DNA from: Jiella sonneratiae
GTDB lineage: Bacteria > Pseudomonadota > Alphaproteobacteria > Rhizobiales > Rhizobiaceae
Direction of reading: 5' to 3'
DNA: 64,000 nt
NCBI RefSeq assembly: GCF_017353515.1
Contig: NZ_JAFMPY010000016.1
Location: 1-64,000, forward strand
Shown: one piece after another, positions 9,248-26,412 of the stretch
How positions within the stretch are numbered: position 1 is the stretch's first letter
Layout: the number at the start of each line of letters is the position of its first letter
Made by a program: the position numbers and the translations under genes
Notes under the pieces: model-generated
The model's input: only the letters and a program-made list of their open reading frames with translations
The model's database searches: none
Told to the model about the DNA's origin: nothing

Positions 9248-9321
9248 CCTACGTCGTCCCCCGCTGCGGTTATAGGCCGACCGCCCGGAAAAATCTGCAA
9301 AAATTGCCGCATGGTTTCCCG

Positions 9322-9846: not shown

Positions 9847-9871
9847 CTGCGTGACGGTCCTTCGGTAGGGT
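9843..9871 (+). promoter_or_regulatory. Candidate sigma-70 promoter of the GTA cluster
   Basis: TTGACT (9843-9848) and TAGGGT (9866-9871) are separated by exactly 17 bases. An A-rich stretch lies just upstream. The -35 overlaps the stop of the YcgN gene, and the first GTA gene starts ~120 nt downstream. It is the only clear promoter-like pair in this 144-nt gap. Confidence 0.45.
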
Positions 9872-9990
9872 TCATTCATCATCGAAAATCTGTCGGCGGC
9901 GTCGGGGCGACCCGGAGCCGCCGTCGTCGTTTCAGGGCCGGTGGGGCGATTGCTTCCGCGGCTCGATGGCGGATGCGGTTCGGAGAGCGG

Positions 9991-10470
9991 ATGGCGGAGC
10001 TTTTGTCGGACCGGCTCTACGCGCTGCTGATGCGCGAGGTGGGGCGGCTGGAAGCCGAGGGTGAGGATAATAATCCTGAAAATGGCTGTCATGCTGCGGC
10101 CGAGACCGTGCCGGACGGCGAGAAGCCCCGCGTCAGGCGGACGAAGAATGGCGGCGCGGCCGGCTTCAAGGAGCGGGCCGATGCACTCGCCTTGTTGACC
10201 CGCACGCTGGAAAAGCTCCTCGAACTGCGGTCGCTGGAGGCGACAAGCGGCCGCGACGACGAGACGGAGACGCTGCGGCTGCGGGACGAATTCATGCGCC
10301 GGCTGAGAGCCCTCGATGCGCGCCGCGCCGGCGGTGCCCGGCTTTTCGCCGACGGCGGCGAGACGGCAACGAAGCCGGCGGCATCAATGACGGCCGCCGC
10401 GCGCGCGGCGAAGGCGCGCCGCCGGCCGGCCGGATCGAAACGCCCGGAACGGGGCGCCGATGGCCGATAG
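9991..10470 (+). CDS. GTA gp1: small terminase subunit-like protein
   Basis: This 159-residue protein is encoded immediately before the large terminase and overlaps it by 11 nt, the position of gene g1 in the R. capsulatus GTA. The first half contains a helical segment (ERADALALLTRTLEKLLELRS), and the C-terminus is very basic (AKARRRPAGSKRPERGADGR), consistent with DNA recognition for packaging. An ATG at 9973 is also possible and adds six residues. I chose 9991 for its GGAGAG just upstream. Sequence similarity among gp1 proteins is weak, so the assignment rests mainly on position. Confidence 0.72.
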   Translation: MAELLSDRLYALLMREVGRLEAEGEDNNPENGCHAAAETVPDGEKPRVRRTKNGGAAGFKERADALALLTRTLEKLLELRSLEATSGRDDETETLRLRDEFMRRLRALDARRAGGARLFADGGETATKPAASMTAAARAAKARRRPAGSKRPERGADGR

Positions 10471-11806
10471 CGGCGACGGCGACGACGGGTTCGAGGACGA
10501 CGACACCCGTTTATCGGATGTGCAGTTCTGGAGCCGGGCGGACAGGCTGGTCGGGCGGCAGAAGGGACGGGTTCTGGAGCGCTCGGCGCTGCCCTGGTCG
10601 AGCCTTGCCCGGCCTTCGCAACTGCCGCCGCCGGGGAACTGGCGGCAATGGCTGATCGTCGGCGGGCGCGGCTCCGGCAAGACGCGGGCGGGGGCGGAAT
10701 GGATCAAGGCGATGGCGGCGGGCGAAAGCCCCTTCGTCGGTCGGCCGCACATGCGCATCGGACTTCTCGCCGAGACGCTGGCGGATGCCCGCGAGGTGAT
10801 GATCGACGGCGAAAGCGGCCTTCTCGCCGTCTGCGGCCATCCGCGGCCGGTGTTCGAGGCGAGCCGCAGGCGGCTGGTCTTCGCCAGCGGGGCGATCGCC
10901 CAGATCTTTTCCTCGGAGGATCCCGACGCGCTGCGCGGCTACCAGTTCGATCTCGCCTGGGGCGACGAGCTGGCGAAATGGGTTCACGGCGACGCGTCGT
11001 TCGACAATCTGCAGCTGGCGCTGCGGCTCGGAGAGAACCCGCGCGCGCTGTTCACGACGACGCCGCGGCCGATCCCGCTGCTGAAGCGGCTGATCGCCGA
11101 TCCCGGGACGGCGACGACGCACATGACGACGGCGGAGAACGCCGCCAACCTCGCCCCGGGCTTCCTCGCGGCGATGGGCGAGCGCTATGGCGGGACGCGG
11201 CTCGGCCGGCAGGAACTCGACGGAGAAATCCTCTCGGCGCGGGACGACGCGCTGTTCGACATCGGGAAGATCGAGCGGGACCGCTGCGATCCGCCCTCGG
11301 AGCTGCGGCGGATCGTCGTCGCGGTCGATCCGCCGGCGAGCGCGACGAAGCGCTCCGACGCCTGCGGGATCGTCGCGGCGGGACGCGGCGGCGACGGCAC
11401 GATCTACGTGCTCGCCGACGGCAGCCGGCGGAAGGCCAAGCCGCATGAATGGGCGAGGGCGGCGATCGGGCTCTACGACGCGCTGAAGGCCGACCGGATC
11501 GTCGCCGAGGTCAACCAGGGCGGCGACATGGTCGAGGCGGTGATCCGCGCGGCAAGTCCCGACACGCCGTTCCAGGCGGTCAGGGCGAGCCGCGGCAAAT
11601 GGGCGAGGGCGGAGCCCGTCGCCGCGCTCTACGAGCGCGGACGGGTGCGCCATGCCGGCCGGTTTCCCGAACTCGAGGACGAGATGGCGGATTTCGGCCC
11701 GGACGGCCTGTCGGGCGGCCGCTCGCCGGACCGGCTGGACGCCCTGGTCTGGGCGGTCAACGCCCTGGCGGGAGGCGGCGAGGCGCCGCGGATCAGGGGG
11801 CTTTAG
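10460..11806 (+). CDS. GTA gp2: large terminase subunit (packaging ATPase/nuclease)
   Basis: This 448-residue protein is the motor that pumps host DNA into the particle and cuts it. The N-terminal ATPase has Walker A GGRGSGKT at residues 68-75 and a Walker B-like segment FDLAWGDELAKW. A TTTPRP coupling motif follows at ~195. The C-terminal RNase H-like nuclease shows acidic motifs VAVDPPAS, EVNQGGD and SPDRLDALVWA. It overlaps the small terminase gene. The family is GTA/HK97-type terminase, and all catalytic motifs are intact. Confidence 0.93.
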   Translation: MADSGDGDDGFEDDDTRLSDVQFWSRADRLVGRQKGRVLERSALPWSSLARPSQLPPPGNWRQWLIVGGRGSGKTRAGAEWIKAMAAGESPFVGRPHMRIGLLAETLADAREVMIDGESGLLAVCGHPRPVFEASRRRLVFASGAIAQIFSSEDPDALRGYQFDLAWGDELAKWVHGDASFDNLQLALRLGENPRALFTTTPRPIPLLKRLIADPGTATTHMTTAENAANLAPGFLAAMGERYGGTRLGRQELDGEILSARDDALFDIGKIERDRCDPPSELRRIVVAVDPPASATKRSDACGIVAAGRGGDGTIYVLADGSRRKAKPHEWARAAIGLYDALKADRIVAEVNQGGDMVEAVIRAASPDTPFQAVRASRGKWARAEPVAALYERGRVRHAGRFPELEDEMADFGPDGLSGGRSPDRLDALVWAVNALAGGGEAPRIRGL

Positions 11807-11866
11807 GCTGACCGGACTTCGGACGCGGGGGGCGAAGGTTCAGCGCTTGAGGTCTGCGCCGAGGCA

Positions 11867-12056
11867 CCCCCCTCTGCCCTGCCGGGCATCTCCCCCACAA
11901 GGGGGGAGATCGGCAGCTTTGGCGGGTGGCGCCTCATCTTTGTCGATGCTGCAAGCTTCATCGCTCGCGTGAGCGCGGGGCGTCGGCGCGAAATCGATCT
12001 CCCCCCGTGTGGGGGAGATGTCCGCCCTTCGACAAGCTCAGGAGGACAGAGGGGGG
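11867..12056. repeat. MITE-like mosaic intergenic element inside the GTA cluster
   Basis: This is a 190-bp imperfect inverted repeat. The left arm starts CCCCCCTCTGCCCT and the right arm ends AGGACAGAGGGGGG. Each arm contains a short palindrome of the form ATCTCCCCC-N-GGGGGAGAT (11888-11910 and 11997-12019). The right arm carries CTTCGACAAGCTCAGGAGG, a segment familiar from repeats in rhizobial and other alphaproteobacterial intergenic regions. It fills most of the 334-nt gap between the terminase and portal genes, which in other GTAs is nearly absent. No ORF inside looks real. Confidence 0.75.
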
Positions 12057-12140
12057 CGAGACGGGCGCCGCCGCAGACAGGTTGCCGGCCGCGCAAACGG
12101 CCGGATCGCCGAACGCATTCCAGAACATCGGAGCAATCGC

Positions 12141-13355
12141 ATGGGACTTGCGGGAACGATCGCGGGCTGGCTCGGTGCGGCCTCTCGGCCGCCGGGCGAG
12201 AGCGCCTCCGCAGCGCCCGCCGAGCAAAAATCCACCGCCACGGTGGCGGGGACGCTGGTCTTCACCGGCAGGGACGAGGGCATCTGGACCGAGCGGTCCT
12301 ATGCCGCCCTGTCGCGGGCCGGCTTCATGCAGAACCCGGTCGCCTATCGCTCGGTGCGGCTGATTGGCGAGGCGGCGGCGGCGATCCCGCTCGTCCTCTA
12401 TGACGGGACCAGCGAAGTCGCAGCGCACCGGCTACTCGACCTGATGCGCCGGCCGAACCCGATGAGCGCCGGTGCGGCCTTCGTCGAGACGCTCTGCGGC
12501 CACCTGCTCCTCGCCGGCAACGCCTATGTCGAGGCGGCGCTCCTCGACGGGGAGGTGAAGGCGCTGCACGTCCTGCGGCCAGACCGCGTGCGGCTGATCG
12601 CCGACACGGACGGATGGCCCGAGGCCTTCGAATACCGGGCCGGCACGACGGTGAGGCGGATTGCGGCCGAGGCGCCGGACGGCGGGCCGGCAAGCATCCT
12701 GCAGTTGTCGCTGTTCCACCCGCTCGACGATCATCGCGGCTACCCGCCGCTCGGCGCGGCGCAGAGCGCGCTCGATCTGCACAATGCGGCGGCGCGCTGG
12801 AACCGCGCGCTCCTCGACAATTCCGCCCGCCCCTCCGGGGCGCTGATCTACAAGGCCGAAGGCGGCGGCAATCTCTCGCCCGACCAGTTCGACCGGCTGA
12901 AGGCGGAGCTCGAGACCGGCTATTCCGGCGCCGCCCGGGCGGGACGTCCGCTGCTTCTTGAAGGCGGCCTCGACTGGAAGGCGATGGCGCTTTCGCCGAA
13001 GGACATGGACTTCGTCGAGGCGAAGAACGGCGCCGCCCGCGACATCGCGCTCGCCTTCGGCGTGCCGCCGATGTTGCTCGGCATCCCCGGCGATCTGACC
13101 TATGCGAACTACGCCGAGGCGAACCGCGCCCTCTACCGGCTGACCGTGCTGCCGCTCGTCAAGCGGATCGCCGGCGCGCTCGGCGGCTGGCTCGGCGCTC
13201 ATTTCGGGGAGCCGGAACTGTCGCTTTCCGTCGATCTCGACGCGGTCGAGGGCCTTTCGGCCGAGCGCGAGGCCCTGTGGACGCGGGTCGGCGCGGCGGA
13301 CTTCCTCAGCCGGGACGAGAAGCGGGAGGCCGTCGGCTATGGCAGCGAGGATTGA
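12141..13355 (+). CDS. GTA gp3: HK97-family portal protein
   Basis: This 404-residue protein forms the dodecameric DNA gate of the capsid. Typical portal segments are MQNPVAYRSVRLIGEAAAAIP (from residue ~54), LLAGNAYVEA, VLRPDRV, and the C-terminal GVPPMLLGIPGDLTYANYAEA. I chose ATG 12141 (GGAG upstream, N-terminus MGLAGTIAGWLG). An in-frame reading back to 12009 runs into the upstream mosaic repeat and is not protein-like. It overlaps the protease gene by 17 nt. Confidence 0.92.
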   Translation: MGLAGTIAGWLGAASRPPGESASAAPAEQKSTATVAGTLVFTGRDEGIWTERSYAALSRAGFMQNPVAYRSVRLIGEAAAAIPLVLYDGTSEVAAHRLLDLMRRPNPMSAGAAFVETLCGHLLLAGNAYVEAALLDGEVKALHVLRPDRVRLIADTDGWPEAFEYRAGTTVRRIAAEAPDGGPASILQLSLFHPLDDHRGYPPLGAAQSALDLHNAAARWNRALLDNSARPSGALIYKAEGGGNLSPDQFDRLKAELETGYSGAARAGRPLLLEGGLDWKAMALSPKDMDFVEAKNGAARDIALAFGVPPMLLGIPGDLTYANYAEANRALYRLTVLPLVKRIAGALGGWLGAHFGEPELSLSVDLDAVEGLSAEREALWTRVGAADFLSRDEKREAVGYGSED

Positions 13356-13821
13356 GATGCGCGGCGTCGCGGCGCCGCTGCAGCCCGCCGGCGCGACGCC
13401 CTTGCCGCTGCCGGCGCGGTTCTCCGGCTATGCCGCGATCTTCGGTGCGACGGATCTCGCCGGCGACAGGATCGAGCCCGGCGCCTTCGCGGCCTCGCTC
13501 GCCGCGCGGCGGCCGGAAGCCGTGCGCATGCTCTGGCAGCACGATCCCGCCCGCCCGATCGGCCGTTGGATCGACATCGCCGAGGACCGGACCGGGCTGA
13601 AGGTCCTCGGCGAATTCGCCCTCGACACCGCCGGCGGCCGCGAGGCGGCGGCGCTCGCCGCGGCAGGAGCCGTGGACGGTCTGTCGATCGGCTTTCGCAC
13701 CAAGCTGGCGAGGCGCGGCGACGGCGGCACCAGGCGACGGCTGGTGACGATCGACCTCTGGGAGGTCTCGCTCGTCACCTTCCCGATGCAGGAGCGGGCC
13801 CGCTTCAGCCTCTTCGCCTGA
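13339..13821 (+). CDS. GTA gp4: HK97-type prohead protease
   Basis: This 160-residue capsid maturation protease (peptidase family U35/S78) has the histidine motif MLWQHDPARPIG near residue 58 and the nucleophile motif DGLSIGF near residue 115, followed by LWEVSLVTFPM. It overlaps the end of the portal gene. A second ATG at 13357 would start it just after the portal stop. The cleavage target should be the capsid protein encoded next. Confidence 0.9.
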   Translation: MAARIEMRGVAAPLQPAGATPLPLPARFSGYAAIFGATDLAGDRIEPGAFAASLAARRPEAVRMLWQHDPARPIGRWIDIAEDRTGLKVLGEFALDTAGGREAAALAAAGAVDGLSIGFRTKLARRGDGGTRRRLVTIDLWEVSLVTFPMQERARFSLFA

Positions 13822-13860
13822 CGGCGGCACATCTTCATCCGAGACAACAGGAGAGACGAC

Positions 13861-15111
13861 ATGGACGAAACGGCACTCGCCGGCTTCGAGACGAAGACGG
13901 TCACCCCGGAGACGCGGGGCCTGCAGGACGAGATGATGCGGACCTTCGAGAGCTTCCGCGAGGCGAACGACGCGCGGCTCGCGGAGCTGGAGCGGCGGAT
14001 GAGCGCCGACACGCTGGCGACCGACAAGGTCGATCGCATCGCCGCCGCGCTCGACGCCCAGAACCAGCGCATCGAGCGGCTGGCGCTGAAGGAGATGCGC
14101 CCGGCACTCGGGCAGGACCGGACGCGCTTCGGCGCGCCGGCGAGCGAACACAAGAGCGCCTTCGAACGCTATGTCAGGGCGGGCGACGAGGCGGCGCTCC
14201 GGCGCTTTGAGGAAAAGGCGATGTCGAGCCTGACCGGGGCGGACGGCGGCTTCCTCGTGCCAGAGGAGACCGAGACGGAAATCGGCCGGCGGCTCGCGGC
14301 GATCTCGCCGATCCGCTCGATCGCCGCCGTCAGGACGGTGTCGACCGCGGTGCTGAAGAAGCCCTTCGCGATCTCCGGCGCCGAGAGCGGCTGGGTCAGC
14401 GAGACAGCCGTGCGCGACCAGACCGCCGCGCCGCAGCTCGCCGAACTGACCTTTCCGACCATGGAGCTCTACGCCATGCCGGCCGCCACGGCGGCGCTGC
14501 TCGACGATGCGGCCGTCGACATCGACCGCTGGATCGGCGAGGAGGTGGAGCAGGCCTTCGCGGCCCAGGAAAGCGCCGCCTTCGTCAACGGCGACGGCCT
14601 CGCGATGCCGAAGGGCTTCATGACCTACGACAGGGTCGACGAGAGCGCCTGGGCCTGGGGCAAGGTCGGGACGGTCGGGACGGGCGCCGACGGCGGCTTC
14701 GCCGAGGGCGAGGCGGCCGACGCGCTGATCGACCTCGTCTACGCCCTCAAGGCCGGATACCGGCAGAATGCCAGCTTCGTCATGAATCGCCGCACCCAGA
14801 GCACGGTGCGCAAGCTGAAGGACGAGGACGGCAACTATCTCTGGCTGCCGCCGGCTGCCGCCGGCGCCAAGGCGACGCTGATGGGATTTCCGCTGGTCGA
14901 GGCGGAGGAGATGCCGGACATCGCGACGGGCGCCTGCGCGCTCGCCTTCGGCGACTTCTCCCGCTTCTATCTCGTCGTCGACCGCCAGGGCGTGCGGGTG
15001 CTGCGCGATCCCTACTCCGCCAAGCCCTACGTCCTGTTCTACACGACCAAGCGGGTCGGCGGCGGCATTCTGGACTTCGACGCGGCAAAGCTTCTCGACT
15101 TCTCGGCCTGA
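13861..15111 (+). CDS. GTA gp5: HK97-family major capsid protein
   Basis: This 416-residue precursor has an N-terminal coiled-coil delta domain (residues ~15-80, rich in E/R/L) that the protease should remove. The HK97 fold begins near SSLTGADGGFLVPEE, a classical cleavage-site neighbourhood, and continues with SGWVSETAVRDQT and LDDAAVDIDRWIGEEV to YVLFYTTKRVGGGILDFDAAK. A good ribosome-binding site (GGAGAGACGAC) precedes the ATG. A transcription-terminator-like hairpin follows at 15141. Confidence 0.95.
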   Translation: MDETALAGFETKTVTPETRGLQDEMMRTFESFREANDARLAELERRMSADTLATDKVDRIAAALDAQNQRIERLALKEMRPALGQDRTRFGAPASEHKSAFERYVRAGDEAALRRFEEKAMSSLTGADGGFLVPEETETEIGRRLAAISPIRSIAAVRTVSTAVLKKPFAISGAESGWVSETAVRDQTAAPQLAELTFPTMELYAMPAATAALLDDAAVDIDRWIGEEVEQAFAAQESAAFVNGDGLAMPKGFMTYDRVDESAWAWGKVGTVGTGADGGFAEGEAADALIDLVYALKAGYRQNASFVMNRRTQSTVRKLKDEDGNYLWLPPAAAGAKATLMGFPLVEAEEMPDIATGACALAFGDFSRFYLVVDRQGVRVLRDPYSAKPYVLFYTTKRVGGGILDFDAAKLLDFSA

Positions 15112-15140
15112 CGGCCCGAACGCCGACGAAAACCCCTTGG

Positions 15141-15165
15141 AGACCCGGCTCGACGAGCCGGGTCT
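15141..15165 (+). terminator. Hairpin after the capsid gene, possible partial terminator
   Basis: AGACCCGGCTCG and its exact complement CGAGCCGGGTCT are separated by one base, so about ten pairs can form around a small loop. Only TT then TTTC follow, a weak U-tract. It lies 29 nt after the capsid stop and just before the connector gene, and may lower downstream expression relative to capsid. Confidence 0.55.
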
Positions 15166-15183
15166 TTGCGTTTCTGGAGACGG

Positions 15184-15744
15184 ATGATGACGACGATCGA
15201 CCTCGGCCCGGTCGCCGAGCCGCTGACGCTTGCCGACGCCAAGATCTGGGCGCGGATCGAGCGGGACGACGAGGACGGCCTCATCGCCCGGCTGATCGCG
15301 GCCGGGCGCGAGGCGATCGAGCGCGACACCGGGCTTGCGCTGGTCGCCCGCAGCTTCCGCCTCACCCTCGACCCGGCGCCGTGCGACGGCTGGGTCGAGG
15401 CGACGAGGCGCCCACTCGTCTCGGTCGACACGGTCACGGCCTACGACGCGGCCGGCAATCCGCGTGTTTTCGAACCGGCCGAAGCCATCGTCGAACGGCC
15501 GCGCGGCACGGACGGCTTCCGGCTCGCGCCCGCCGTGCTCGACGCGGCTTCGAACGGCGTCGAGATCGAATTCGTCGCCGGCTACGGCGACGCCGACCGC
15601 CCCGCCGAGCTGATCCTCGCGCTCAAGGCGATCGTCGCCGCGAGCTACGAGGCGCGGGCGCTGGTCGAGCCGGGGATGCAGCCGGCGCTGCGACCGGCGA
15701 TCGCCGAGCGCCTGATCGCCCCGCACCGGCGGGTGCGGATCTGA
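15184..15744 (+). CDS. GTA gp6: head-tail connector (phiE125 gp8-like)
   Basis: This 186-residue protein has the family pattern PLTLADAKIWARIERDDED at the N-terminus, then LIAAGREAIERDTGLAL, and a C-terminal ILALKAIVAASYEAR helix. It forms the ring below the portal. The ATG at 15184 follows GGAGA closely; a second ATG at 15187 has more natural spacing. Its stop overlaps the next start (TGATG). Confidence 0.85.
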   Translation: MMTTIDLGPVAEPLTLADAKIWARIERDDEDGLIARLIAAGREAIERDTGLALVARSFRLTLDPAPCDGWVEATRRPLVSVDTVTAYDAAGNPRVFEPAEAIVERPRGTDGFRLAPAVLDAASNGVEIEFVAGYGDADRPAELILALKAIVAASYEARALVEPGMQPALRPAIAERLIAPHRRVRI

Positions 15745-16076
15745 TGGCCCCGCTGTTTCTCGACCCCGGGCTCTTCAGCCGCCGCGTCGCGCTGGACGAG
15801 CCGGCGATCGTGCCGGACGGAGCGGGCGGCGGCGCGACGCAGTGGCAGGAAGTGCGGGAACTGTCGGTGCGGATCGAGCCGCTCTCCGTCGCCGCGCGCG
15901 AGCGCTTCGACCAGCGCGAGGCGACCGTGACGCATCGCGTGCTGCTGCGCGCGACCACCGCCGTCGAGCGCGGCATGTCGTTCAGGATCGGCGGACGGCG
16001 CCTCCTTGTCCTCTCGGTGCACGATCCGGACGAGAGCGGGCGCTATCTCGTCTGCCGCTGCGAGGAGGAGCGCTGA
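15744..16076 (+). CDS. GTA gp7: head-tail adaptor (head closure) protein
   Basis: This 110-residue protein belongs to the phage head-tail joining family. It opens LFLDPGLFSRRVALDEP, has the WQEVRELSVRIEPLS strand, and ends FRIGGRRLLVLSVHDPDESGRYLVCRCEE. It overlaps gp6 by one base, so translation is coupled. The order gp6-gp7 is as in other GTAs. Confidence 0.85.
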   Translation: MAPLFLDPGLFSRRVALDEPAIVPDGAGGGATQWQEVRELSVRIEPLSVAARERFDQREATVTHRVLLRATTAVERGMSFRIGGRRLLVLSVHDPDESGRYLVCRCEEER

Positions 16077-16078
16077 CC

Positions 16079-16300
16079 ATGCGCATTTCCGTATCGGTCG
16101 AGACCCGGCGCGCCCGCAAGAATTTCCGCCAGCTCGTCGACGAGGCGCTGTCCCGCGCCAGGGCCGGCCTGCCGCCGAGGAGGATCGAGGGACTGCCGCG
16201 CACCTCGAACCTCGGCAAGAGCGCCGATGCGCAGGCGATCATGACCGGTTTCGAGGAGGCCCCGCCGCCGTCCGGATCGCTTGCACCAGATCGATCGTGA
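16079..16300 (+). CDS. Small unrecognised ORF between GTA gp7 and gp8
   Basis: This is a 73-residue basic ORF starting 2 nt after the gp7 stop with a GAGGAGCGC ribosome-binding site contributed by the gp7 end. It has no signal peptide or membrane segment. The N-terminus (MRISVSVETRRARKNFRQL) could form a basic helix, and the C-terminus is proline-rich. I recognise no family. The canonical GTA has gp7 and gp8 directly adjacent. It could be a real accessory protein or the residue of an insertion, and the tight spacing favours translation. Confidence 0.45.
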   Translation: MRISVSVETRRARKNFRQLVDEALSRARAGLPPRRIEGLPRTSNLGKSADAQAIMTGFEEAPPPSGSLAPDRS

Positions 16301-16446
16301 GATAGCGAAAAAGTTAAGATTGCCCCGTTGAACAGCGGGACGCGGAAAGCATTTCCAGTTATGTTTCATCCCGACAACCGGCGTGAAGCGTCCGGTCGTC
16401 GGCGGCGTCGCGAAAGTCGACGGCATCGCAAAGGAGGGCGATAGCG

Positions 16447-16857
16447 ATGGCGCATCCGAGCGCTGAACTGCAGCAATCGATCTTTTCCGCTCTGACCTCC
16501 GATGCCTCCCTAACGGCGCTGCTCGGCGGGCCGAAGGTCTTCGACCGGCGGCCGGAGCGCGCGAGCTTCCCCTATCTCACGCTCGGCCGGACGGCCGTCG
16601 TCGACTGGTCGACGGGCACCGAGGACGGCGCGGAGCACATCCTGACGCTGCACGTCTGGGCCAAGGGCGGCGGCAAGGCCGAGACCTATGAGATCATGGA
16701 CAAGGTCGCCGACAGGCTGAACGACGCGGCGCTGGCACTCGAGGGCCACCATCTCGTCAATCTGCGGCTGCAGTTCGCCGAAGCCCGGCGCGAGGCGGAT
16801 TCCTCCGCCTATCACGGCATCCTGCGGTTCCGGGCGGTGACCGAGCCGGTGGCGTGA
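16447..16857 (+). CDS. GTA gp8: tail completion/terminator protein (DUF3168)
   Basis: This 136-residue protein has the DUF3168 pattern: ELQQSIFSALTSDASLTALLGG at the N-terminus, FPYLTLGRT, then LHVWAKGGGKAETYEIMDKV. It caps the tail tube at the head interface. A strong ribosome-binding site AAGGAGGG lies at 16431-16438. It is separated from the upstream genes by 146 nt that hold no recognisable gene and are AT-richer than the surroundings. Confidence 0.87.
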   Translation: MAHPSAELQQSIFSALTSDASLTALLGGPKVFDRRPERASFPYLTLGRTAVVDWSTGTEDGAEHILTLHVWAKGGGKAETYEIMDKVADRLNDAALALEGHHLVNLRLQFAEARREADSSAYHGILRFRAVTEPVA

Positions 16858-16899
16858 GGCTGGCGACGATCGTGATCAGTTCATCGTCATGATACCGGT

Positions 16900-17304
16900 A
16901 TGCTGAAACTTGCCTGTCTCTGTGGCCAGGTCCGCATCGGCGTGGCCAAGCGGCCGGACTTCATCAACGAATGCAATTGCACGCTCTGCAGCAAGGCTGG
17001 CGCCTGCTGGTCCTATTTCCATCCCTCCGACGTCAGCGTCGAGGGCGCGACCAACAGATATAGCCGCGAAGACAAGGACGATCCGGCCTCAGAGATCCAC
17101 TTCTGCGGCCGATGTGGTTCGACGACGCATTTCACGCTGACGCGGAGCGCCATAGCGAAATTCGGCAATGTTCAGACGGGGGTCAATATGCGTCTGGCGG
17201 ATGAAAGCGATCTCGCCGGAATCGAACTTCGCTTCCCTGACGGACGAGCGTGGTCGGGCGGACCCGATTTCAGCTATGTGCGGGAGCCGCGAATAATTGG
17301 CTGA
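16900..17304 (+). CDS. GFA-family zinc protein inserted in the GTA cluster
   Basis: This 134-residue protein has the Gfa fold (glutathione-dependent formaldehyde-activating enzyme-like). All seven zinc cysteines are visible: C6 and C8 (CLCG), C25, C27 and C30 (CNCTLC), C69 and C72 (CGRCG). In the family these bind a structural and a catalytic-type zinc, but most members have no proven substrate. It is not part of any GTA I know. It sits between gp8 and gp9 and is followed by its own strong terminator. Base composition is visibly less GC-rich than the flanking genes (for example ATATAGCC, GAATAATTGG), suggesting later acquisition. The ribosome-binding site is weak. Confidence 0.85.
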   Translation: MLKLACLCGQVRIGVAKRPDFINECNCTLCSKAGACWSYFHPSDVSVEGATNRYSREDKDDPASEIHFCGRCGSTTHFTLTRSAIAKFGNVQTGVNMRLADESDLAGIELRFPDGRAWSGGPDFSYVREPRIIG

Positions 17305-17377
17305 AGCGCGGCTCCGCAACGATCATCGGCGATGATCGCGCGCTAAGGCGAACTGCAGACTGAGACACTACCAAGGC

Positions 17378-17403
17378 GGGCGGTCCATCGGGCCGCCCTT
17401 TTT
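17378..17403 (+). terminator. Strong intrinsic terminator between GFA gene and GTA gp9
   Basis: A nine-pair stem GGGCGGTCC / GGGCCGCCC (one G-T pair) with a 3-nt loop is followed directly by TTTTT. This is a textbook Rho-independent terminator on the plus strand, 74 nt after the GFA stop and 53 nt before the gp9 start. Confidence 0.85.
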
Positions 17404-17455
17404 CGTTTGCGGCGGGCGACCGCCGCCGGATGAAACGCGAAGATGGGACGCACGG

Positions 17456-17869
17456 ATGAGCGCTCAGAAGGGCAAGGACCTCCTCCTCAAGATCGACGAG
17501 GACGGGGACGGCAGCTTCGTGACGATCGCCGGACTGAGGAGCCGGCGGATCGCCTTCAATGCCGAGGCCGTCGACATCACGGACTCTGAGAGCGCCGGGC
17601 GATGGCGCGAACTCCTCGGCGGCGCCGGAATGCAGCGCGCCGCCCTGTCCGGCTCCGGCATCTTCAAGGACGCCGCCGCGGATGCGAGCCTGCGGCAGAT
17701 CTTCTTCGAATCGCGCGTCGCCTCCTTCCAGGCGATCATTCCGGACTTCGGCAGGGTGACCGGGCCGTTTCAGGTGACGGCGCTGGAATATGGCGGCGAG
17801 CACGATGGCGAGGTGACCTTCGAAGCGACGCTGGAATCGGCCGGCGCGCTGACCTTCGAGGCGATCTGA
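17456..17869 (+). CDS. GTA gp9: major tail tube protein
   Basis: This 137-residue tail tube protein is of the TP901-1 type. It opens MSAQKGKDLLLKIDEDGDG and contains the classical segments TIAGLRSRRIAFNAEAVDITDSES and WRELLGGAGMQRAALSGSG, ending FEATLESAGALTFEAI. It forms the short tail tube rings. It lies immediately downstream of a strong terminator, so it needs either readthrough or its own promoter. None is obvious in the 53-nt gap. Confidence 0.9.
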   Translation: MSAQKGKDLLLKIDEDGDGSFVTIAGLRSRRIAFNAEAVDITDSESAGRWRELLGGAGMQRAALSGSGIFKDAAADASLRQIFFESRVASFQAIIPDFGRVTGPFQVTALEYGGEHDGEVTFEATLESAGALTFEAI

Positions 17870-17870
17870 G

Positions 17871-18233
17871 ATGGCCGCGAACCGCAGGCGCGGCGAGGTG
17901 CCGGCGATCATCGACGGGCGCGAGCGGCGCCTCTGCCTCACCCTCGGCGCCCTCGCCGAACTCGAGGACGCGTTTTCCTCCGACAATCTCGGGGCGCTGG
18001 CGGAACGCTTCCGCGACGGGCGGCTCTCCGCCCGCGACCTGACGCGGATCATCGCCGCCGGGCTTCGTGGGGCGGGGGAACAGGTGTCCGACGCCGAGGT
18101 GGCGGCGATGCGCTTCGAGGGCGCGGCGGCGGGCGCGGCGGCAATCGCCGTCGAGCTGCTGGCGGCAGCCTTCGGCGGAACCGGGGAGGCGGCCGGGCAG
18201 GGCGACGCAAACCCTACCGACCGCCGCGGCTGA
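17871..18233 (+). CDS. GTA gp10: tail assembly chaperone-like (GTA-gp10 family)
   Basis: This 120-residue protein has the family core GEVPAIIDGRERRLCLTLGALAELE, then AERFRDGRLSARDLTRIIAAGLRGAGE. It starts 1 nt after the gp9 stop. Proteins in this position act with the tape measure as tail chaperones. The downstream gp10.1 reading frame is in the -1 frame and open across this gene's end (see findings). Confidence 0.85.
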   Translation: MAANRRRGEVPAIIDGRERRLCLTLGALAELEDAFSSDNLGALAERFRDGRLSARDLTRIIAAGLRGAGEQVSDAEVAAMRFEGAAAGAAAIAVELLAAAFGGTGEAAGQGDANPTDRRG

Positions 18234-18310
18234 CGGCGACAGGCCCGGCGAAGGCGACGGCAGGCGAGAGCAACAGCGGCGCGGCGGCGCCCTTTCCCTG
18301 GGACGAGGTG

Positions 18311-18478
18311 ATGGCCGTCGGTCTCGGCGTCCTCAGGCTGACGCCCGAAGCGTTCTGGACGATGACGCCGCGCGAACTCGCGAGCGTAATCGCGCCGAAG
18401 CGCGCCCGCCCGCCGGCGCCGAGCGCCCGCGACCTTTCCGAAATGATGCGGCGCTTTCCCGATCCTCGCGGCCCTTGA
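18311..18478 (+). CDS. GTA gp10.1: phage tail assembly chaperone (start uncertain)
   Basis: The diagnostic family sequence is PFPWDEVMAVGLGVLRLTPE followed by AFWTMTPRELA, ending at 18478. The first in-frame ATG (18311) lies inside that conserved block, and GTG 18308 just before it. Homologs I recall begin a few residues ahead of PFPWDE, which here would be near 18257-18290, where no ATG, GTG or TTG occurs in frame. The true product therefore probably includes residues upstream of this start, by a rare start codon or by a -1 shift from gp10. It is a small partner of gp10 in tail-length control. Confidence 0.75.
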   Translation: MAVGLGVLRLTPEAFWTMTPRELASVIAPKRARPPAPSARDLSEMMRRFPDPRGP

Positions 18479-18517
18479 CGGGTGCCGCGAGCCTTTCCAC
18501 CGGAACGGACAGGATTC

Positions 18518-19090
18518 ATGGACGAGGACGAGACCTTCACCGTCGCGATCAGGGCCGACACGACCGGGCTCGACCGGGCTCTCGCCGATCTGTCGGACCG
18601 GGCGGACCGCTTCGGCACGGCACTGACCTCGGCGCTGTCGCGAGCGGTCACCGGCGGCAAGTCGCTCGACGACGTCTTCCGGCAACTCGCGCTGCGGCTT
18701 TCGACGATCGCCCTCGACGCCGCGCTGAAGCCGCTCGGCGACCTCGCCTCGACCGCGATCGGCCAGATCGTCGCGGCCTTCGGCGGCACTGCGGGAACGG
18801 CGGCGACGGGCGTGGTGCTGCCCTTCGCCAAGGGCGGCGTCGTCGCCGCGCCGAGCTACTTTCCGGCCGGCGGCGGACTCGGGCTGATGGGCGAGGCGGG
18901 TGCGGAGGCGATCCTGCCGCTGTCGCGCGGCGCCGACGGCACGCTCGGCCTCGCCGCTCCCGAGGCGCGCAGCGCGCCGCAGATCGTCTTCAACGTCACG
19001 ACGCCGGACGCGCCGAGCTTCCGCCGCGCCGAGGCCCAGATCCAGGCGATGCTGACCCGCGCGGCGGTGCGCGGACGACGGGGCGTCTGA
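18518..19090 (+). CDS. GTA gp11: short tape measure protein
   Basis: This 190-residue protein contains helical segments (TGLDRALADLSDRADRFGTAL and LDDVFRQLALRLSTIALDAAL) and then the glycine-rich tape measure hallmark FAKGGVVAAPSYFPAGGG, LGLMGEAGAEAILPL. GTA tape measures are much shorter than phage ones, matching the short tail. I chose ATG 18518 (MDEDETFTVAIRADTTGLD) over an upstream in-frame start at 18482. Confidence 0.88.
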   Translation: MDEDETFTVAIRADTTGLDRALADLSDRADRFGTALTSALSRAVTGGKSLDDVFRQLALRLSTIALDAALKPLGDLASTAIGQIVAAFGGTAGTAATGVVLPFAKGGVVAAPSYFPAGGGLGLMGEAGAEAILPLSRGADGTLGLAAPEARSAPQIVFNVTTPDAPSFRRAEAQIQAMLTRAAVRGRRGV

Positions 19091-19092
19091 CC

Positions 19093-19728
19093 ATGCCGAT
19101 CACCGCCTTCAGCGAGGAGCGCTTTCCGCTCCGGATCGCCTTCGGCACCAGCGGCGGGCCGGAACGGCGCACCGACATCGTCCGGCTTTCGACGGGCTTC
19201 GAGACCCGCAACCAGCGTTTCGCCCGCTCGGTCAGGCGCTACGACGCGGGATCGGGCCTGAAGAGCCTCGCCGATCTTTCGCTCATCCTCGACTTCTTCG
19301 AGGCGATGCGCGGAAGGCTGACCGGGTTCCGCTTCCGCGATCCGCTCGACAACGCCTCCAGCCGCTTCGGCAATCCGGTGTCGGCCCTCGACCAGGCGAT
19401 CGGCACCGGCGACGGCGAGACCACGAGCTTCAGCCTTTCCAAGACCTATGGCAGCGGCGAAGGCGCCTATGTCCGGCCGATCGAAAAACCCGTCGCCGGG
19501 ACGGTGCGCGTCGCCGTCGACGGCGCCGAGATCGCCGCGGGCTTTGCCGTCGACAGCCTCACCGGGACGCTCGCCTTCGACGCGCCCCCGGCCGTCGGGG
19601 CGGCGATCACCGCGGGCTTTCAGTTCGACGTACCGGTGCGCTTCGACACCGACCAGCTGTCGATCAACGTCGCCGCCTTCGAGGCCGGCGACATCCCCGT
19701 CATCCAGCTCATCGAGATCCGCCCATGA
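19093..19728 (+). CDS. GTA gp12: distal tail protein (DUF2460)
   Basis: This 211-residue protein has the DUF2460 signature: FSEERFPLRIAFGTSGGPERRTDIV at the N-terminus, RNQRFARSVRRYDAG, FFEAMRGRLTGFRFRDPLDN, and the end DIPVIQLIEIRP. It forms the ring linking tail tube to baseplate hub. It starts 2 nt after gp11 and overlaps gp13 by 4 nt (ATGA). Confidence 0.92.
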   Translation: MPITAFSEERFPLRIAFGTSGGPERRTDIVRLSTGFETRNQRFARSVRRYDAGSGLKSLADLSLILDFFEAMRGRLTGFRFRDPLDNASSRFGNPVSALDQAIGTGDGETTSFSLSKTYGSGEGAYVRPIEKPVAGTVRVAVDGAEIAAGFAVDSLTGTLAFDAPPAVGAAITAGFQFDVPVRFDTDQLSINVAAFEAGDIPVIQLIEIRP

Positions 19729-20615
19729 GGACGCTGCCAGACGAACTCGCCGCGGCGGTCGCCGGCCCGGTGACGACGCTTGCCAACTGCTGGCGGCTGA
19801 CGCGCAAGGACGGCAGCGTCCTCGGCTTCACCGACCACGACGAGCCGCTGGTCTTCGCCGGGACCCGCTTCGAGGCCGCGACCGGGCTCTCCGCCAGCGA
19901 GGCGGAGGCCGCCCTCGGCCTCGGGGCGACGACGGGGGAGGTCGAGGGCGCCCTGTCGTCGGCGGCGATCAGGGAGGAAGACGTCGCGGCCGGGCGCTTC
20001 GACGGGGCGACGGTCGAGTCCTTCGTCGTCGACTGGCGCAACCCGGCGGCGCATGTGCGCATCGACGTTTCCGATCTCGGCGAGGTGCGCCGGGACGAGA
20101 CGGCCTTCACCGCGGAGCTGCGAAGCGTCGCCGCCCGGCTCGAGGCCGTGCGCGGGCGCATCTACCGACGCCGCTGCGACGCCGTTTTCGGCGACGCGCG
20201 CTGCGGGTTCGACCTGTCGCAGCCGCCATACACCGTGGAATGTCTGGTCGCGGCCGTCGGCGACGGCTGGATCGACACGGCAACGGCGCTCGGCGCGCCG
20301 CCCGAGAGCTATGCCTTCGGCCGGCTGACCATGCTGACCGGCGAGGCCGCCGGTCTCGGCAGCGACGTCGTCTCGGCCACGGATCGGGCAAACGGTACCG
20401 TGCGCATCGCCATCGCGTCGCCGATCGTCGCCGAGATCGCAGCGGGCGACGGCTTCCGGATCGTTCAGGGATGCGACAAGCGCTTCGCCACCTGCCGCGG
20501 GCGCTTCGCCAACCAGACGAATTTCCGCGGCTTCCCGCACATCCCGGGCAGCGACGCCAGCCTGGCGGTCGGCCGGCGCGGCAACGCCAATGACGGCTCG
20601 CCGGTGGTGCCATGA
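19725..20615 (+). CDS. GTA gp13: baseplate hub protein (DUF2163)
   Basis: This 296-residue protein has the DUF2163/phage BR0599 pattern: NCWRLTRKDGSVLGFTDHDEPL, the cysteine-containing RGRIYRRRCDAVFGDARCGFDL, and FRIVQGCDKRFATCRGRFANQ with NFRGFPHIPG near the C-terminus. In the R. capsulatus GTA structure the equivalent protein forms an iron-sulfur-bearing hub, and the four conserved cysteines here (CDAVFGDARC and CDKRFATC) fit that. ATGA overlaps join it to both neighbours. Confidence 0.92.
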   Translation: MRTLPDELAAAVAGPVTTLANCWRLTRKDGSVLGFTDHDEPLVFAGTRFEAATGLSASEAEAALGLGATTGEVEGALSSAAIREEDVAAGRFDGATVESFVVDWRNPAAHVRIDVSDLGEVRRDETAFTAELRSVAARLEAVRGRIYRRRCDAVFGDARCGFDLSQPPYTVECLVAAVGDGWIDTATALGAPPESYAFGRLTMLTGEAAGLGSDVVSATDRANGTVRIAIASPIVAEIAAGDGFRIVQGCDKRFATCRGRFANQTNFRGFPHIPGSDASLAVGRRGNANDGSPVVP

Positions 20616-21043
20616 GCGACCGGACCCGCGAAACGGCGCTCGCCGCGGCCCGCGGCTGGCTCGGCACGCCCTATCGCCATCAGGGATCGGCGCGGGGCAT
20701 CGGCTGCGACTGCCTCGGCCTCCTGCGCGGCGTCTGGCGCGAGCTCTACGGCATCGAACCCGAGGCGCCCGGCGCCTATGCCGAGACCTGGAGCCTTCGC
20801 GCCGGGCCCGACCGGCTGCTTTGCGCCGCCGAGCGCCATCTTCGGCCGATCGAGGCGAGCGCCGCACGGCCGGGCGACGTGCTGCTGTTCAGGTGGCGCC
20901 GCGGCGCGCCGGCGACCCACTGCGCCGTGATCGACGAGGGCGGGCGTATCATCCACGCCTATCAAGGCGCGGCCGTCGTCTCGACGGCGCTGCCGCGCGG
21001 CTGGCAGGGCCGGATCGCCGGCGCCTTCCGTTTTCCGGAGTAG
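20612..21043 (+). CDS. GTA gp14: NlpC/P60 cell-wall peptidase
   Basis: This 143-residue peptidoglycan hydrolase is carried on the tail to open the recipient wall. The NlpC/P60 triad residues are visible: C34 in GCDCLGLL and H103 in ATHCAVIDEG. The RPGDVLLFRWRR strand lies between them. It overlaps gp13 by 4 nt and ends 3 nt before the GTG start of gp15. Confidence 0.93.
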   Translation: MSDRTRETALAAARGWLGTPYRHQGSARGIGCDCLGLLRGVWRELYGIEPEAPGAYAETWSLRAGPDRLLCAAERHLRPIEASAARPGDVLLFRWRRGAPATHCAVIDEGGRIIHAYQGAAVVSTALPRGWQGRIAGAFRFPE

Positions 21044-21046
21044 ATC

Positions 21047-24000
21047 GTGGCGACCATCGTGCTTCAGGCGGCCGGGGCCGCCCTCGGCAGCATTCTCGGC
21101 GGCCCGCTCGGGGCGGTGATCGGGCGCGCCGCCGGCGCGCTCGCCGGCTCGGCGATCGACCGGTCGGTGTTTTCCGAGACCAGACGCTACGAAGGCCCGC
21201 GTCTCGAGACGGCGCGGATCATGACCGCCGACGAGGGCGCCGGCATCCCCCGCATCTACGGCACCGCCCGCGTCGCCGGACAGGTGATCTGGACGACGCG
21301 CTTCGAGGAGGAGGTCGAGACCGAGCGGCAGGGCGGCAAGGGCATCGAGCCGGCGACCGAGGTGACGACCTACAGCTATTTCGGCAATGTCGCCGTCGGC
21401 CTCTGCGAGGGCCCGATCGCCGCGATCCGCCGCGTCTGGGCCGACGGCGAGGAACTGGATCTCTCCGACGTTTCCTACAGGGTCTATCTCGGCGACGAGG
21501 ACCAACTGCCCGACCCGCTGATCGAGGTGAAGCAGGGCGAAGGCAATGCGCCGGCCTATCGCGGCCTCGCCTATCTCGTGTTCGAGCGCCTGCCGCTCGA
21601 GACCTGGGGCAACCGCATCCCGCAGATCAGCTGCGAGGTGCTGCGCCCGATCGGCCGGCTGGAAGGGCAGGTCCGCGCCGTCACGGTGATCCCCGGCGCG
21701 AGCGAGCACGGGCTCGACCCGATACCGGTGCGCGAGCGCCTCGCCGAGGGCGAGGACCGGCTGGTCAACCGCAACGTCCTTTATGCGGACAGCGACATCC
21801 TTGCCTCGCTCGACGAGCTGACGGCGCTCTGCCCCGATCTCGAACGCGCGGCGCTCGTCGTCTCCTGGTTCGGGGACGATCTGCGTGCCGGCCGCTGCAC
21901 GCTCCGGCCGAAGGTCGAGACGGGGCAGCGCGACGAGGACGAGGACTGGCGGGTGAGCAATCTCGGCCGCGGCGACGCCGGGCTGGTGGCAAACCTCGGC
22001 GGCGGCCCCGCCTATGGCGGAACGCCGAGCGACGCCGGGGTCATCCGGGCCATCGAGGCGATGAAGCAGCGCGGGCTGAAGGTCACCTTCTATCCCTTCG
22101 TGCTGATGGACGTTGCGCCGGGCAACGGCCTTCCCGATCCCTATGGTGGAGCGGAGCAGGCGGCCTTTCCCTGGCGGGGCCGGCTGACCCTCGACGTCGC
22201 CGTCGGGCGGGAAGGAAGCGAGGACGGCACCGCCGCCGCGCGCGCGGCGATCGAAGCCTTTCTCGGGACCGTCGGTCCGGGCGACTTCTCCCGCTCGGGC
22301 AGCCGCATCGTCTATTCCGGCCCCGACGAATGGTCCTACCGCCGGATGATCTTCCACCAGGCGCATCTTGCGGCCGCCGGCGGCGCCGACGCCTTCGTCA
22401 TCGGCTCGGAACTCAGGGGTCTGACGCGCATCCGCGACGAAGCCGGACGGTTCTGCTTCGTCGAAGGGCTGATCGCGATCGCCGAGGGCGTGAAGTCGAT
22501 CCTGCCCGATGCCATCGTCACCTATGCCGCGGACTGGAGCGAATATTCGAACTACCGGCCGGAGGACGGCTCCGGCGACGTCTTCTTCCATCTCGATCCG
22601 CTCTGGGCGTCGCCGGCGATCGACGCCATCGGCATCGACGACTACCTGCCGATCGCCGACTGGCGCGACGGCGAGGACGCGCCCGACGCAGCCTCGATCT
22701 ACGACCGCGACGGCCTTGCGGCAGGCATCGCCGGCGGCGAGGACTTCGACTGGTATTATCCGAACGAAACCGACCGGGCAGACAAGCGCCGTCAGCCGAT
22801 CACCGACGACGCCCTCGGCAAGCCCTGGGTGTTCCGCGCCAAGGACCTCGTCTCCTGGTGGGCGAACCTGCATTTCGACCGCCGGGGCGGGACCGAGGTC
22901 GCCGAGCCCTCTCCCTATGTGCCGATGGCCAAGCCGATCTGGCTGACCGAGCTCGGCTGCCCGGCGATCGACAAGGGGCCGAACGAGCCGAACCTCTTCG
23001 TCGACGCCAAGTCGTCCGAGAGCGACGTTCCGCATTTTTCGACGGGCACGCGGGACGACCTCGTGCAGCGACGCTTCCTGGAGACGCAACTCGACCACTG
23101 GAGCCCTGGCGCGGAAGGCTTCGACGAGGCGGCGAACCCGCTCTCGCCGCTCTATGGCGGCCGGATGGTCGATCCCGGCACGATCCATCTGTGGACCTGG
23201 GATGCGCGGCCGTTTCCCGCCTTTCCGGGCCGCACCGACCTGTGGAGCGACGGCGAAAACTGGCGGCTCGGCCACTGGCTGACGGGACGGCTCGGCAACG
23301 CGCCCGTCGACGCGCTGGCCGCCGAGATCCTCGCCGCGCACGAACTCGGCGACAGCGACGTCGGCGGCCTCGAGGCGATCGTGACGGGCTGGATCGAGAC
23401 CGGTCCGGCATCGGCGCGCGAGACGCTGGAGAATCTCTTCGGCCTCGTCGGCGCCGTCGCCCACGTCGAGGAGGGCCGGCTCGTCGCCCGGTCGCTGGGC
23501 CGGCTGCGGGCGGATCGCCTGCTGCAGGAGTTCGTCGACGACGCGGAGAAGCCGCGCATCGAGCTGCGCCGGACCGAGGCCGCCGAGACCGTCGATGCGG
23601 TGGCGCTGAGCTTCGTCGATCCCTGGCGGGACTATCAGCCCGGCAGTGCCGAAGCGATGCGGGCGAGCGTCGCGGCCCCGCGCCGGCAGCTCGTCGGCGT
23701 CCCCGCGGTCATCGACGAGGGGGAGGCGGCTGGTTTCGCCGCGGCCATGCTGGCGGACCTCGGGGTGGCGACCGAGACGGCCGAATTCGCGCTGCCCGCG
23801 AGCGAGATCGGGCTCGGCATCGGCGACGTCGTCGGTCTCGATGGCCGCAGCGGCGACTGGCTGCTGACGCGGATCGAGACCGGGCTGGCGAGCCGGATCA
23901 CCGCCAAGCGCCTGCCGCTGCGGCGGGTCCGTGCATCTGCCGGCGGCACCGTCCAGGCGACGTCGTCGGCGCGGCCGAACCTCGCCTCGCGTCCCTTCGC

Positions 24001-24925
24001 AGCCTTCCTCGACCTGCCGCTGCCGGCGGCCGGCAGCGGCTATGACGGAGCGCGGATCGCGGTCGGCGCCGCGCCGTTTCCGGGCTACGAGGTGACCAGC
24101 CTTTCGGCAGACGGCGCTTTGACGAGACGCGCGAGCGTCGGCCGTCCGGCGACACTCGGCCGGCTGACTGCGCCGCTTCTGCCGGGCCCGGAAGGCCGGA
24201 TCGATCCGGCCGCTGCGGTCTGCGTCTCGCTGCCGCGCGGCAGGCTGTCCTCGGTGTCATCCGCCGCGATGCTCGCCGGTGCCAATCTCTGCGCCGTCGC
24301 CTCGAACGACGGAGGCTTCGAGGTCCTGCAGTTCGCGAGCGCCGAGGAGACCGCCGCGGGCGAGTTCCGTCTCACCGGCCTCCTGCGGGCCCAGGGCGGC
24401 ACCGAGGATGCGATGGCGGCCGGCGCCTCCACCGGGGCGCTGTTCGTTTTGCTCGACGGGGCGAGCATGCCGATCGCGCTGACCGAGGCGGAAGTCGGCC
24501 GAAGCCTCGATTACCGCATTCAGCCATTCGGCCGAAGCCGCGACGACGCTTCGGTGATCAGCCGGACGGCGGCGCTCGGCGCGCGCTCGGTGCGGCCGCT
24601 CTCGCCGGTCCATCTTGCCGCGAGCTTTGCCGAAGGCGGCGGCGTCACGCTCGGCTGGGTGCGGCGGACGCGCGTCGGCGGCGACAACTGGGCGGCGCGC
24701 GAGGTGCCGCTCGGTGAGGAGGCCGAACTGTACCGTGTCGTGGTCGGCGACGGCGAGACCCTCGTGACCTACGAGGTCACGGCCCCGCAGCTCGATCTCA
24801 CCGCAGCCGAACAGACGATGCGATTCGGCGCCCTGCCGGAGCAGCTTCAGGTCTCGGTCGCGCAGGTCAGTCCGGTCTGGGGCGCCGGCACCAGCCGTCG
24901 CGCGACCTTCACCCGGCCGTCTTGA
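21047..24925 (+). CDS. GTA gp15: baseplate megatron / host-specificity protein
   Basis: This 1292-residue protein is the largest of the particle. The N-terminus has a glycine/alanine-rich hydrophobic stretch (LQAAGAALGSILGGPLGAVIGR) that may insert in the membrane. A tail-hub domain follows (residues ~40-330), then the GTA TIM-barrel-like domain (from ~390, with FVIGSELRGLTRIRDEAG and WLTELGCPAIDKGPNEPN), and a phage-tail_3-type region with beta-rich C-terminal modules. The protein is full length compared with other alphaproteobacterial GTAs. It starts at GTG, 3 nt after gp14. It ends the recognisable cluster. Confidence 0.93.
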   Translation: MATIVLQAAGAALGSILGGPLGAVIGRAAGALAGSAIDRSVFSETRRYEGPRLETARIMTADEGAGIPRIYGTARVAGQVIWTTRFEEEVETERQGGKGIEPATEVTTYSYFGNVAVGLCEGPIAAIRRVWADGEELDLSDVSYRVYLGDEDQLPDPLIEVKQGEGNAPAYRGLAYLVFERLPLETWGNRIPQISCEVLRPIGRLEGQVRAVTVIPGASEHGLDPIPVRERLAEGEDRLVNRNVLYADSDILASLDELTALCPDLERAALVVSWFGDDLRAGRCTLRPKVETGQRDEDEDWRVSNLGRGDAGLVANLGGGPAYGGTPSDAGVIRAIEAMKQRGLKVTFYPFVLMDVAPGNGLPDPYGGAEQAAFPWRGRLTLDVAVGREGSEDGTAAARAAIEAFLGTVGPGDFSRSGSRIVYSGPDEWSYRRMIFHQAHLAAAGGADAFVIGSELRGLTRIRDEAGRFCFVEGLIAIAEGVKSILPDAIVTYAADWSEYSNYRPEDGSGDVFFHLDPLWASPAIDAIGIDDYLPIADWRDGEDAPDAASIYDRDGLAAGIAGGEDFDWYYPNETDRADKRRQPITDDALGKPWVFRAKDLVSWWANLHFDRRGGTEVAEPSPYVPMAKPIWLTELGCPAIDKGPNEPNLFVDAKSSESDVPHFSTGTRDDLVQRRFLETQLDHWSPGAEGFDEAANPLSPLYGGRMVDPGTIHLWTWDARPFPAFPGRTDLWSDGENWRLGHWLTGRLGNAPVDALAAEILAAHELGDSDVGGLEAIVTGWIETGPASARETLENLFGLVGAVAHVEEGRLVARSLGRLRADRLLQEFVDDAEKPRIELRRTEAAETVDAVALSFVDPWRDYQPGSAEAMRASVAAPRRQLVGVPAVIDEGEAAGFAAAMLADLGVATETAEFALPASEIGLGIGDVVGLDGRSGDWLLTRIETGLASRITAKRLPLRRVRASAGGTVQATSSARPNLASRPFAAFLDLPLPAAGSGYDGARIAVGAAPFPGYEVTSLSADGALTRRASVGRPATLGRLTAPLLPGPEGRIDPAAAVCVSLPRGRLSSVSSAAMLAGANLCAVASNDGGFEVLQFASAEETAAGEFRLTGLLRAQGGTEDAMAAGASTGALFVLLDGASMPIALTEAEVGRSLDYRIQPFGRSRDDASVISRTAALGARSVRPLSPVHLAASFAEGGGVTLGWVRRTRVGGDNWAAREVPLGEEAELYRVVVGDGETLVTYEVTAPQLDLTAAEQTMRFGALPEQLQVSVAQVSPVWGAGTSRRATFTRPS

Positions 24926-25150
24926 AGACCCGGCGTCGCGGACATGCCGGTTCGTGCAGGACAGCACCTCGGGCCGGCTGCAATTTTTCGTCGAAACGGG
25001 CCGGAGATCGGCCCTCGACTGTCGCTCCGCCCTATGCCGATGACCCTTTGCCCCCTATCCTTGCGGGAGGAGGCGTCCGTTTGCGACATTCATTCGTCAT
25101 TCAGCCGGCCCCTGATAGACATTCACCGTCGATGCGAAGACCTCCGCCGC

Positions 25151-25492: not shown

Positions 25493-25726
25493 CCGCCGGC
25501 CGCCCTGTTTTTGCCGGGAATTTGCCCCAAACCTGCAGCGTTGCCAGAAAATCGCCGGTGACGGCCGGGTTTCGTGCGACGATGCCGGCCGGGGCAGGCA
25601 ACGCGGGCGACCGGCACGGAGGAAATTCGCGGCGGATCATTCGCGTTCGCCGTTTGATGCGGTGGTCGCGCCGATGATCTCTAGGACGCCGCGGTCGATC
25701 CGCCAAAGGGGAGCAGAGCCGGAACG

Positions 25727-26398: not shown

Positions 26399-26412
26399 AG
26401 CTTTCGCGCTCC

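Follow-up and report, generated by a model that had tools for sequence, protein, structure and literature searches.

A phage moron is a foreign, recently inserted gene with its own promoter and its own terminator, the latter arriving together with the gene. In Caulobacter, the GTA cluster is reported to be blocked by a terminator located at its terminase–portal junction unless GafZ passes some polymerase (Tran and Le 2024, PMC11150451). Homologues of GafA carry the annotation DUF6456 (PMC9638019), and we infer that DUF6456 corresponds to the GafZ side of GafA. A GFA protein of Paracoccus is described as binding glutathione, the formation of S-hydroxymethylglutathione not being catalysed under standard conditions (PMC4682968). 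The titles and abstract openings among the literature matches listed named neither a g8–g9 terminator nor an insertion slot in GTAs.

The DNA analysed here (the window) is a stretch of 64,000 nt from Jiella sonneratiae (contig NZ_JAFMPY010000016.1, positions 1 to 64,000). It carries an RcGTA-type cluster with g1–g15-type genes in conserved order; profile matches were obtained for g5–g10, and the tape-measure match of g11 stayed under the cut-off (144.6 of 220 bits). The survey pool, a non-random sample, consisted of 241 loci. To the window were added the 80 titled clusters ranking highest in g9 similarity out of 553, and a further 160 stretches, 80 from an order search and 80 from family and genus searches, weaker and contig-end matches being mostly omitted. 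After removal of 18 loci with identical g9 DNA, 223 were kept, and both g8 and g9 were placed in 220; homologues of g4–g15 of the window were present in 210–223 of the 223 loci, of g3 in 204, of g2 in 183 and of g1 in 23. Of more interest than the GFA-family gene (gfa) found between g8 and g9 are two features revealed by it: a conserved, native predicted terminator at this junction and a recurrent passenger slot.

The gfa gene and its surroundings

The junction is opened by g8 (GTA tail terminator/completion protein; 16447..16857, plus strand; PF11367, Pfam tail completion gp17, 130.3 bits; profile match also to phrog_176, tail terminator) and closed by g9 (GTA major tail (tube) protein; 17456..17869, plus strand; TIGR02126, 116 bits; PF06199, 149.6 bits; profile name, TP901-1 major tail protein), the product of which is 91–92% identical to the nearest named g9 proteins, from Jiella species. 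Between g8 and the terminator lies, as a passenger, the GFA-family zinc-protein gene gfa (16900..17304, plus strand), an ORF of 134 aa matching PF04828 (38.6 bits, E 1.2e-9, cut-off 24.3); family and position are those given in the original prediction. The seven cysteines that it was said to keep (C6, C8, C25, C27, C30, C69, C72) were invariant in an alignment of eight GFA proteins, including one fragment, and we take them to be zinc ligands. Its lower GC was likewise borne out: 59.5% with GC3 of 0.70, against 66.9–75.8% and 0.81–0.93 for g1–g15, both values lying below those of each of these genes. The product is probably a small predicted zinc protein of GFA/CENP-V type serving the host, not the particle. 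The gene has the same orientation as the GTA cluster; no Shine–Dalgarno-like sequence was seen (by eye) before its ATG, which counts against the reading preferred below, and a promoter scan limited to the sigma-70 type gave no such site near gfa.

Among the 223 surveyed clusters gfa was found in that of the window only (E up to 0.01). Ten Jiella genomes (own included) gave no close counterpart, the other matches being of at most 32.3 bits, partial in cover and elsewhere in the genome. In an order-level search 42 of 297 genomes (own included) matched with E no higher than 1e-10; the best non-self homologue (77% identity; the next, 47%) came from a genome of another family, G253, in which no g9 match was found at E up to 1e-25. 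A class-level search of 240 genomes yielded five (own included; E up to 1e-12; best other 36%), and a search of 72,556 plasmid records 34 matches (E up to 1e-8), the best of which (68.7%, Skermanella) adjoined an AraC-type regulator. Comparison with the 77% homologue gave dN 0.14 and dS 0.90; the protein has therefore evolved under constraint, though perhaps for the most part before its arrival at the GTA. Judged by these sequence comparisons, gfa is a foreign, recently inserted, species-specific gene: a GFA-family passenger of ordinary kind that a single species has taken up. An origin as a phage gene was rejected: with an E threshold of 1e-4, the 50,697 phage records gave two homologues, of 27.6% identity, and the viral contigs searched gave none. 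Entry on a mobile element bounded by repeats was also discarded, just weak, probably chance repeats being present in 16840–17460.

Upstream of g8 a non-coding element (16306..16370, plus strand) conserved in Jiella was located, which occurred in 10/10 Jiella clusters with no more than one mismatch (best elsewhere, three mismatches), had a fixed 26-nt spacing from TTGAAC to TATRTTTCA and was unique in the genome. A AAAAGTTAA-like core stood upstream of g8 in 9/10 Jiella, 7/25 other Aurantimonad and 0/184 remaining clusters; before g6, g9 and g11 it was found in none of the Aurantimonads and in 2/556 cases in the rest. The element may be an internal promoter; that it is of RpoH type is a guess, ca. 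5/6 and 4/7 positions matching, by our own count, the RpoH1 motif given in PMC4843759. A glmS match at 16000–16055 was dismissed as chance (15.6 bits; gathering 37). Between g7 and g8 an ORF of 73 aa (16079–16300) was noted, with counterparts of 43–51% identity in four other Jiella loci and no family match in profile searches. Upstream of g1, at 9843–9871, TTGACT and TAGGGT separated by 17 nt make, by eye, a candidate main GTA promoter; the promoter scan did not list this site.

The predicted g8–g9 terminator is native to the GTA junction

A GC-rich hairpin with a T tract at 17378..17406 (plus strand) has the form, and the predicted function, of an intrinsic terminator: 9-bp stem with eight G–C pairs, 3-nt loop, T-rich tail (hairpin 17378–17398, then TTTTT). 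It is separated from the gfa stop codon by a spacer (17305..17377, plus strand), the sequence left of the terminator giving no reliable alignment between species, and the end of the hairpin lies 57 nt from the g9 start; a terminator before the tail tube gene had been predicted and is present. RNA folding gave −19.6 kcal/mol (z −2.8; equalled by 3/200 shuffles). Terminator-like sites in 8000–27000 were near chance in number (10 found, 8.0 expected), this hairpin being the richest of them in G–C pairs.

In a set of 30 g9 loci (own included), the same junction hairpin was present in 9/9 other Jiella genomes and gfa in 0/9. All 23 aligned Aurantimonadaceae clusters (the window and L042–L063) had the hairpin at most 70 nt from g9; 98.3% of 230 pair cells in the stem alignment were standard pairs, and compensatory changes were found at four pairs, with 12 cells altered on both sides (0/500 shuffles as high; kinship alone can beat such shuffles without structure, and sliding the partners lowers every measure). 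The first, stricter terminator criterion missed hairpins with a stem running into the T tract, e.g., L047; later counts were made with a relaxed one, under which L086 and L206 are scored as misses, though hairpin-like sequence is visible in both. With groups assigned from names and g9 similarity, the terminator was present in 10/10 Jiella, 23/25 other Aurantimonadaceae and 17/185 remaining clusters; within the first two groups gfa occurs in the window alone.

The distance from terminator to g9 was 22–59 nt in insert-free loci, and in 11 of the 12 insert loci having a terminator the nearest hairpin stood 24–57 nt from g9 (exception, L087, 1398 nt). In the loci L149 and L158, which carry TerB, a second terminator lies directly 3' of g8. 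Since the terminator occupies the same place in gfa-free Jiella and Aurantimonas/Aureimonas clusters, it predates gfa; its constant distance to g9 with or without an insert, together with its conservation, makes it part of the GTA junction. These comparisons show the predicted terminator to be native to the GTA, conserved and locked to g9, with gfa upstream of it. The comparison of the gp8–gp9 junction in relatives thus went both ways for the original prediction: among the surveyed clusters gfa is restricted to that of the window, but the terminator, regarded there as belonging to gfa, is shared with gfa-free relatives.

Terminators and inserts across the surveyed clusters

Terminators were counted in the 250 nt preceding each following gene and compared with dinucleotide shuffles: g8–g9, 49/220 clusters (0.65 expected); g5–g6, 49/214 (2.25 expected); g2–g3, 9/182 (1.05 expected). 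At g3–g4 and g4–g5 3/203 and 0/167 were found, both counts depending on a poorly placed g4, and the eight other junctions together gave 14/1709. Intrinsic terminators in the surveyed GTA clusters concentrate at g5–g6 and g8–g9. When g2–g3, g5–g6 and g8–g9 were all present (180 clusters), at least one terminator was found in 80 and none in 100; both g5–g6 and g8–g9 were occupied in 10 of the 180. The g5–g6 terminators sit after the major capsid gene, e.g., in L046, L058 and L213; the g5–g6 junction of the window had none by the same criterion.

The g8–g9 gap exceeded 400 nt in 38/220 clusters, and the inserts comprised at least 13 unrelated cargo types, the loci not being independent. No known GTA was said to carry such a gene; this holds for GFA itself, unique among the 223 clusters, but not for the junction, which has taken up many other genes. 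Cargo was counted by tblastn with representative cargo, the representatives being named by Pfam, and 3 of the 38 inserts fell outside this assignment: MFS transporter, minus strand, 13/220 clusters; TerB, 5; SDR, 3; GNAT, 3; TacA-GNAT toxin–antitoxin, 3, two of them together with MFS; hexapeptide transferase, 2; small secreted-looking protein, 2; DUF2200, GFA and four unnamed ORFs, one cluster each. Identified cargo on the minus strand was present in 20/38 insert clusters (13 MFS, 3 SDR, 3 GNAT, 1 unnamed); riding in the g8 transcript is therefore not a general rule. In Rhizobium-type clusters (e.g., L115, L117, L248, L256, L261) the g8–g9 gap is filled by a minus-strand MFS gene, and the GTA is thus interrupted there by an opposing gene. 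The DUF2200 insert of Jiella endophytica (L042; mechanical GTG start) opens one base past the g8 stop codon, a spacing that suggests co-expression with g8. TacA-type antitoxin genes were observed in GTA clusters at g2–g3 (L049, L201, L226) and at g8–g9 (L087, L250, L274), loci that also gave a match to a GNAT toxin-like gene.

Gaps longer than the junction median by more than 400 nt were found at g2–g3 in 51/182 clusters, g8–g9 in 37/220, g5–g6 in 22/214, g11–g12 in 12/211, g14–g15 in 8/209, g13–g14 in 7/211, g9–g10 in 4/220, g10–g11 in 3/218, g12–g13 in 2/213, g7–g8 in 0/213 and g6–g7 in 0/214; g8–g9 is accordingly one of few insertion sites, not the sole one. The g3–g4 gap, measured like that of g4–g5 with g4 of the window as reference, exceeded 400 nt in 115/203 clusters (median 439 nt), something being usually present there, and the g4–g5 gap in 13/210; both stand outside the argument. 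It was considered whether the terminator makes the site permissive, and this found no support: inserts were present in 12/50 clusters with and 26/170 without a terminator (Fisher P 0.20). As these rates do not differ significantly and 26 of the 38 insert-bearing clusters had no terminator (relaxed criterion), insertion does not require one. By these sequence counts g8–g9 is a recurrent landing slot for unrelated passenger genes.

Proposed antitermination at the junction, rival readings and comparison with described systems

The locus is probably best read as a recent passenger, gfa, placed ahead of an old internal GTA terminator that is bypassed by GafZ-type antitermination on induction. With the GTA off, polymerase lacking the antiterminator would halt at the hairpin, once after g8 and now after gfa, and the tail genes would be kept silent; on induction, GafZ-type antitermination would take polymerase past the hairpin to g9–g15. 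gfa would be transcribed with g8, possibly also from the conserved element that precedes g8; the terminator would keep this transcription from running on into the tail genes. A profile search of the genome gave one DUF6456 protein (C20:12995–13384, 156.4 bits); among 14 control genomes the profile matched in Caulobacter only. Since a GafZ-type DUF6456 protein is encoded, antitermination through the g8–g9 hairpin is the likeliest mechanism, and by analogy we infer that this hairpin would act like the Caulobacter one, as a block in the off state and with bypass in the on state. Weighing against this reading are the 100 of 180 clusters that have a terminator at none of the three junctions, the 26 of 38 insert clusters lacking one, the minus-strand cargo and the different build and place of terGTA. 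A split of the head from the tail genes by the terminator, as first predicted, is doubtful, because the terminator is conserved across the family and the genome encodes this protein.

The notion that gfa and a terminator of its own came together as one complete package, perhaps of phage origin, would fit its lower GC, its different gene history and the strong terminator directly downstream, and as a foreign, recent insertion (1/223 clusters; nearest homologue 77%, another family) the gene does resemble a moron. The terminator did not arrive with it, however: gfa-free relatives have it at the same distance from g9, which refutes the moron reading on this point, and the 77% homologue has no such hairpin with T tract in ca. 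250 nt past its stop codon (by eye). The phage and viral collections also speak against it, and we regard this as the least probable of the rivals. A tail tube protein is required in many copies, and this, together with a 9-bp stem of eight G–C pairs and a T tract that should be strong and with the DUF6456 protein encoded in the genome, argues against the hairpins at g8–g9 (and g5–g6) being constitutive partial terminators that, without antitermination, fix how much head relative to tail transcript is made; the concentration of terminators behind the capsid gene and at the border of adaptor and tail genes would agree with such attenuation, which nevertheless seems unlikely.

Selection of gfa for co-expression with the GTA, its product protecting producers or recipients (e.g., from aldehyde or thiol stress), would accord with its place on the same strand within the cluster and with a dN well under dS; the gene is found in one species only, though, the other g8–g9 cargo has no common theme and the dN/dS contrast may mostly predate insertion, so that we give this reading a low probability. 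Very little probability is assigned to decay of the GTA in this species, with the insertion as a neutral sign of it: insertions are frequent in the surveyed clusters, but g1–g15 are open frames of high GC3 and the terminator stem is intact.

The preferred reading, a recent passenger before an antitermination-bypassed terminator, can tentatively be widened, at somewhat less than even chances, to Hyphomicrobiales GTA clusters being segmented by such intrinsic terminators at module borders that are recurrent slots for host-gene cargo. The borders would lie after the terminase, after the capsid and between g8 and g9; host genes entering there would include toxin–antitoxin pairs, and in Jiella g8 and its cargo, set between the conserved element on one side and the terminator on the other, would be controlled as a unit of their own. 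The family-wide g8–g9 terminator and the order-wide concentration at two junctions offer a simple test of GafZ-type antitermination beyond Caulobacter. The recurrent slot shows that unrelated genes enter these domesticated elements at particular positions, which can be used in searches for GTA cargo.

With phage morons gfa shares its character of an accessory gene of atypical GC among structural genes; it differs in that the terminator beside it is a component of the host cluster. It resembles the GFA family (PF04828) and CENP-V-GFA domain proteins in its score above the Pfam cut-off and its seven invariant cysteines; it is a protein of 134 aa, and a comparison with PDB sequences gave two matches, 8ajq and 3fac, both being other GFA-domain or uncharacterised proteins. 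The closest parallel is the terGTA/GafZ system of CcGTA: in both an alphaproteobacterial GTA has a cluster-internal terminator, the Jiella one predicted, through which polymerase would have to pass if the whole cluster is to be expressed, and the Jiella genome too encodes a GafZ-type DUF6456 protein. The terminators themselves differ, terGTA consisting of three 150-bp GC-rich repeats at the terminase–portal junction (PMC11150451), whereas that of Jiella is predicted to be a short hairpin with a T tract at g8–g9.
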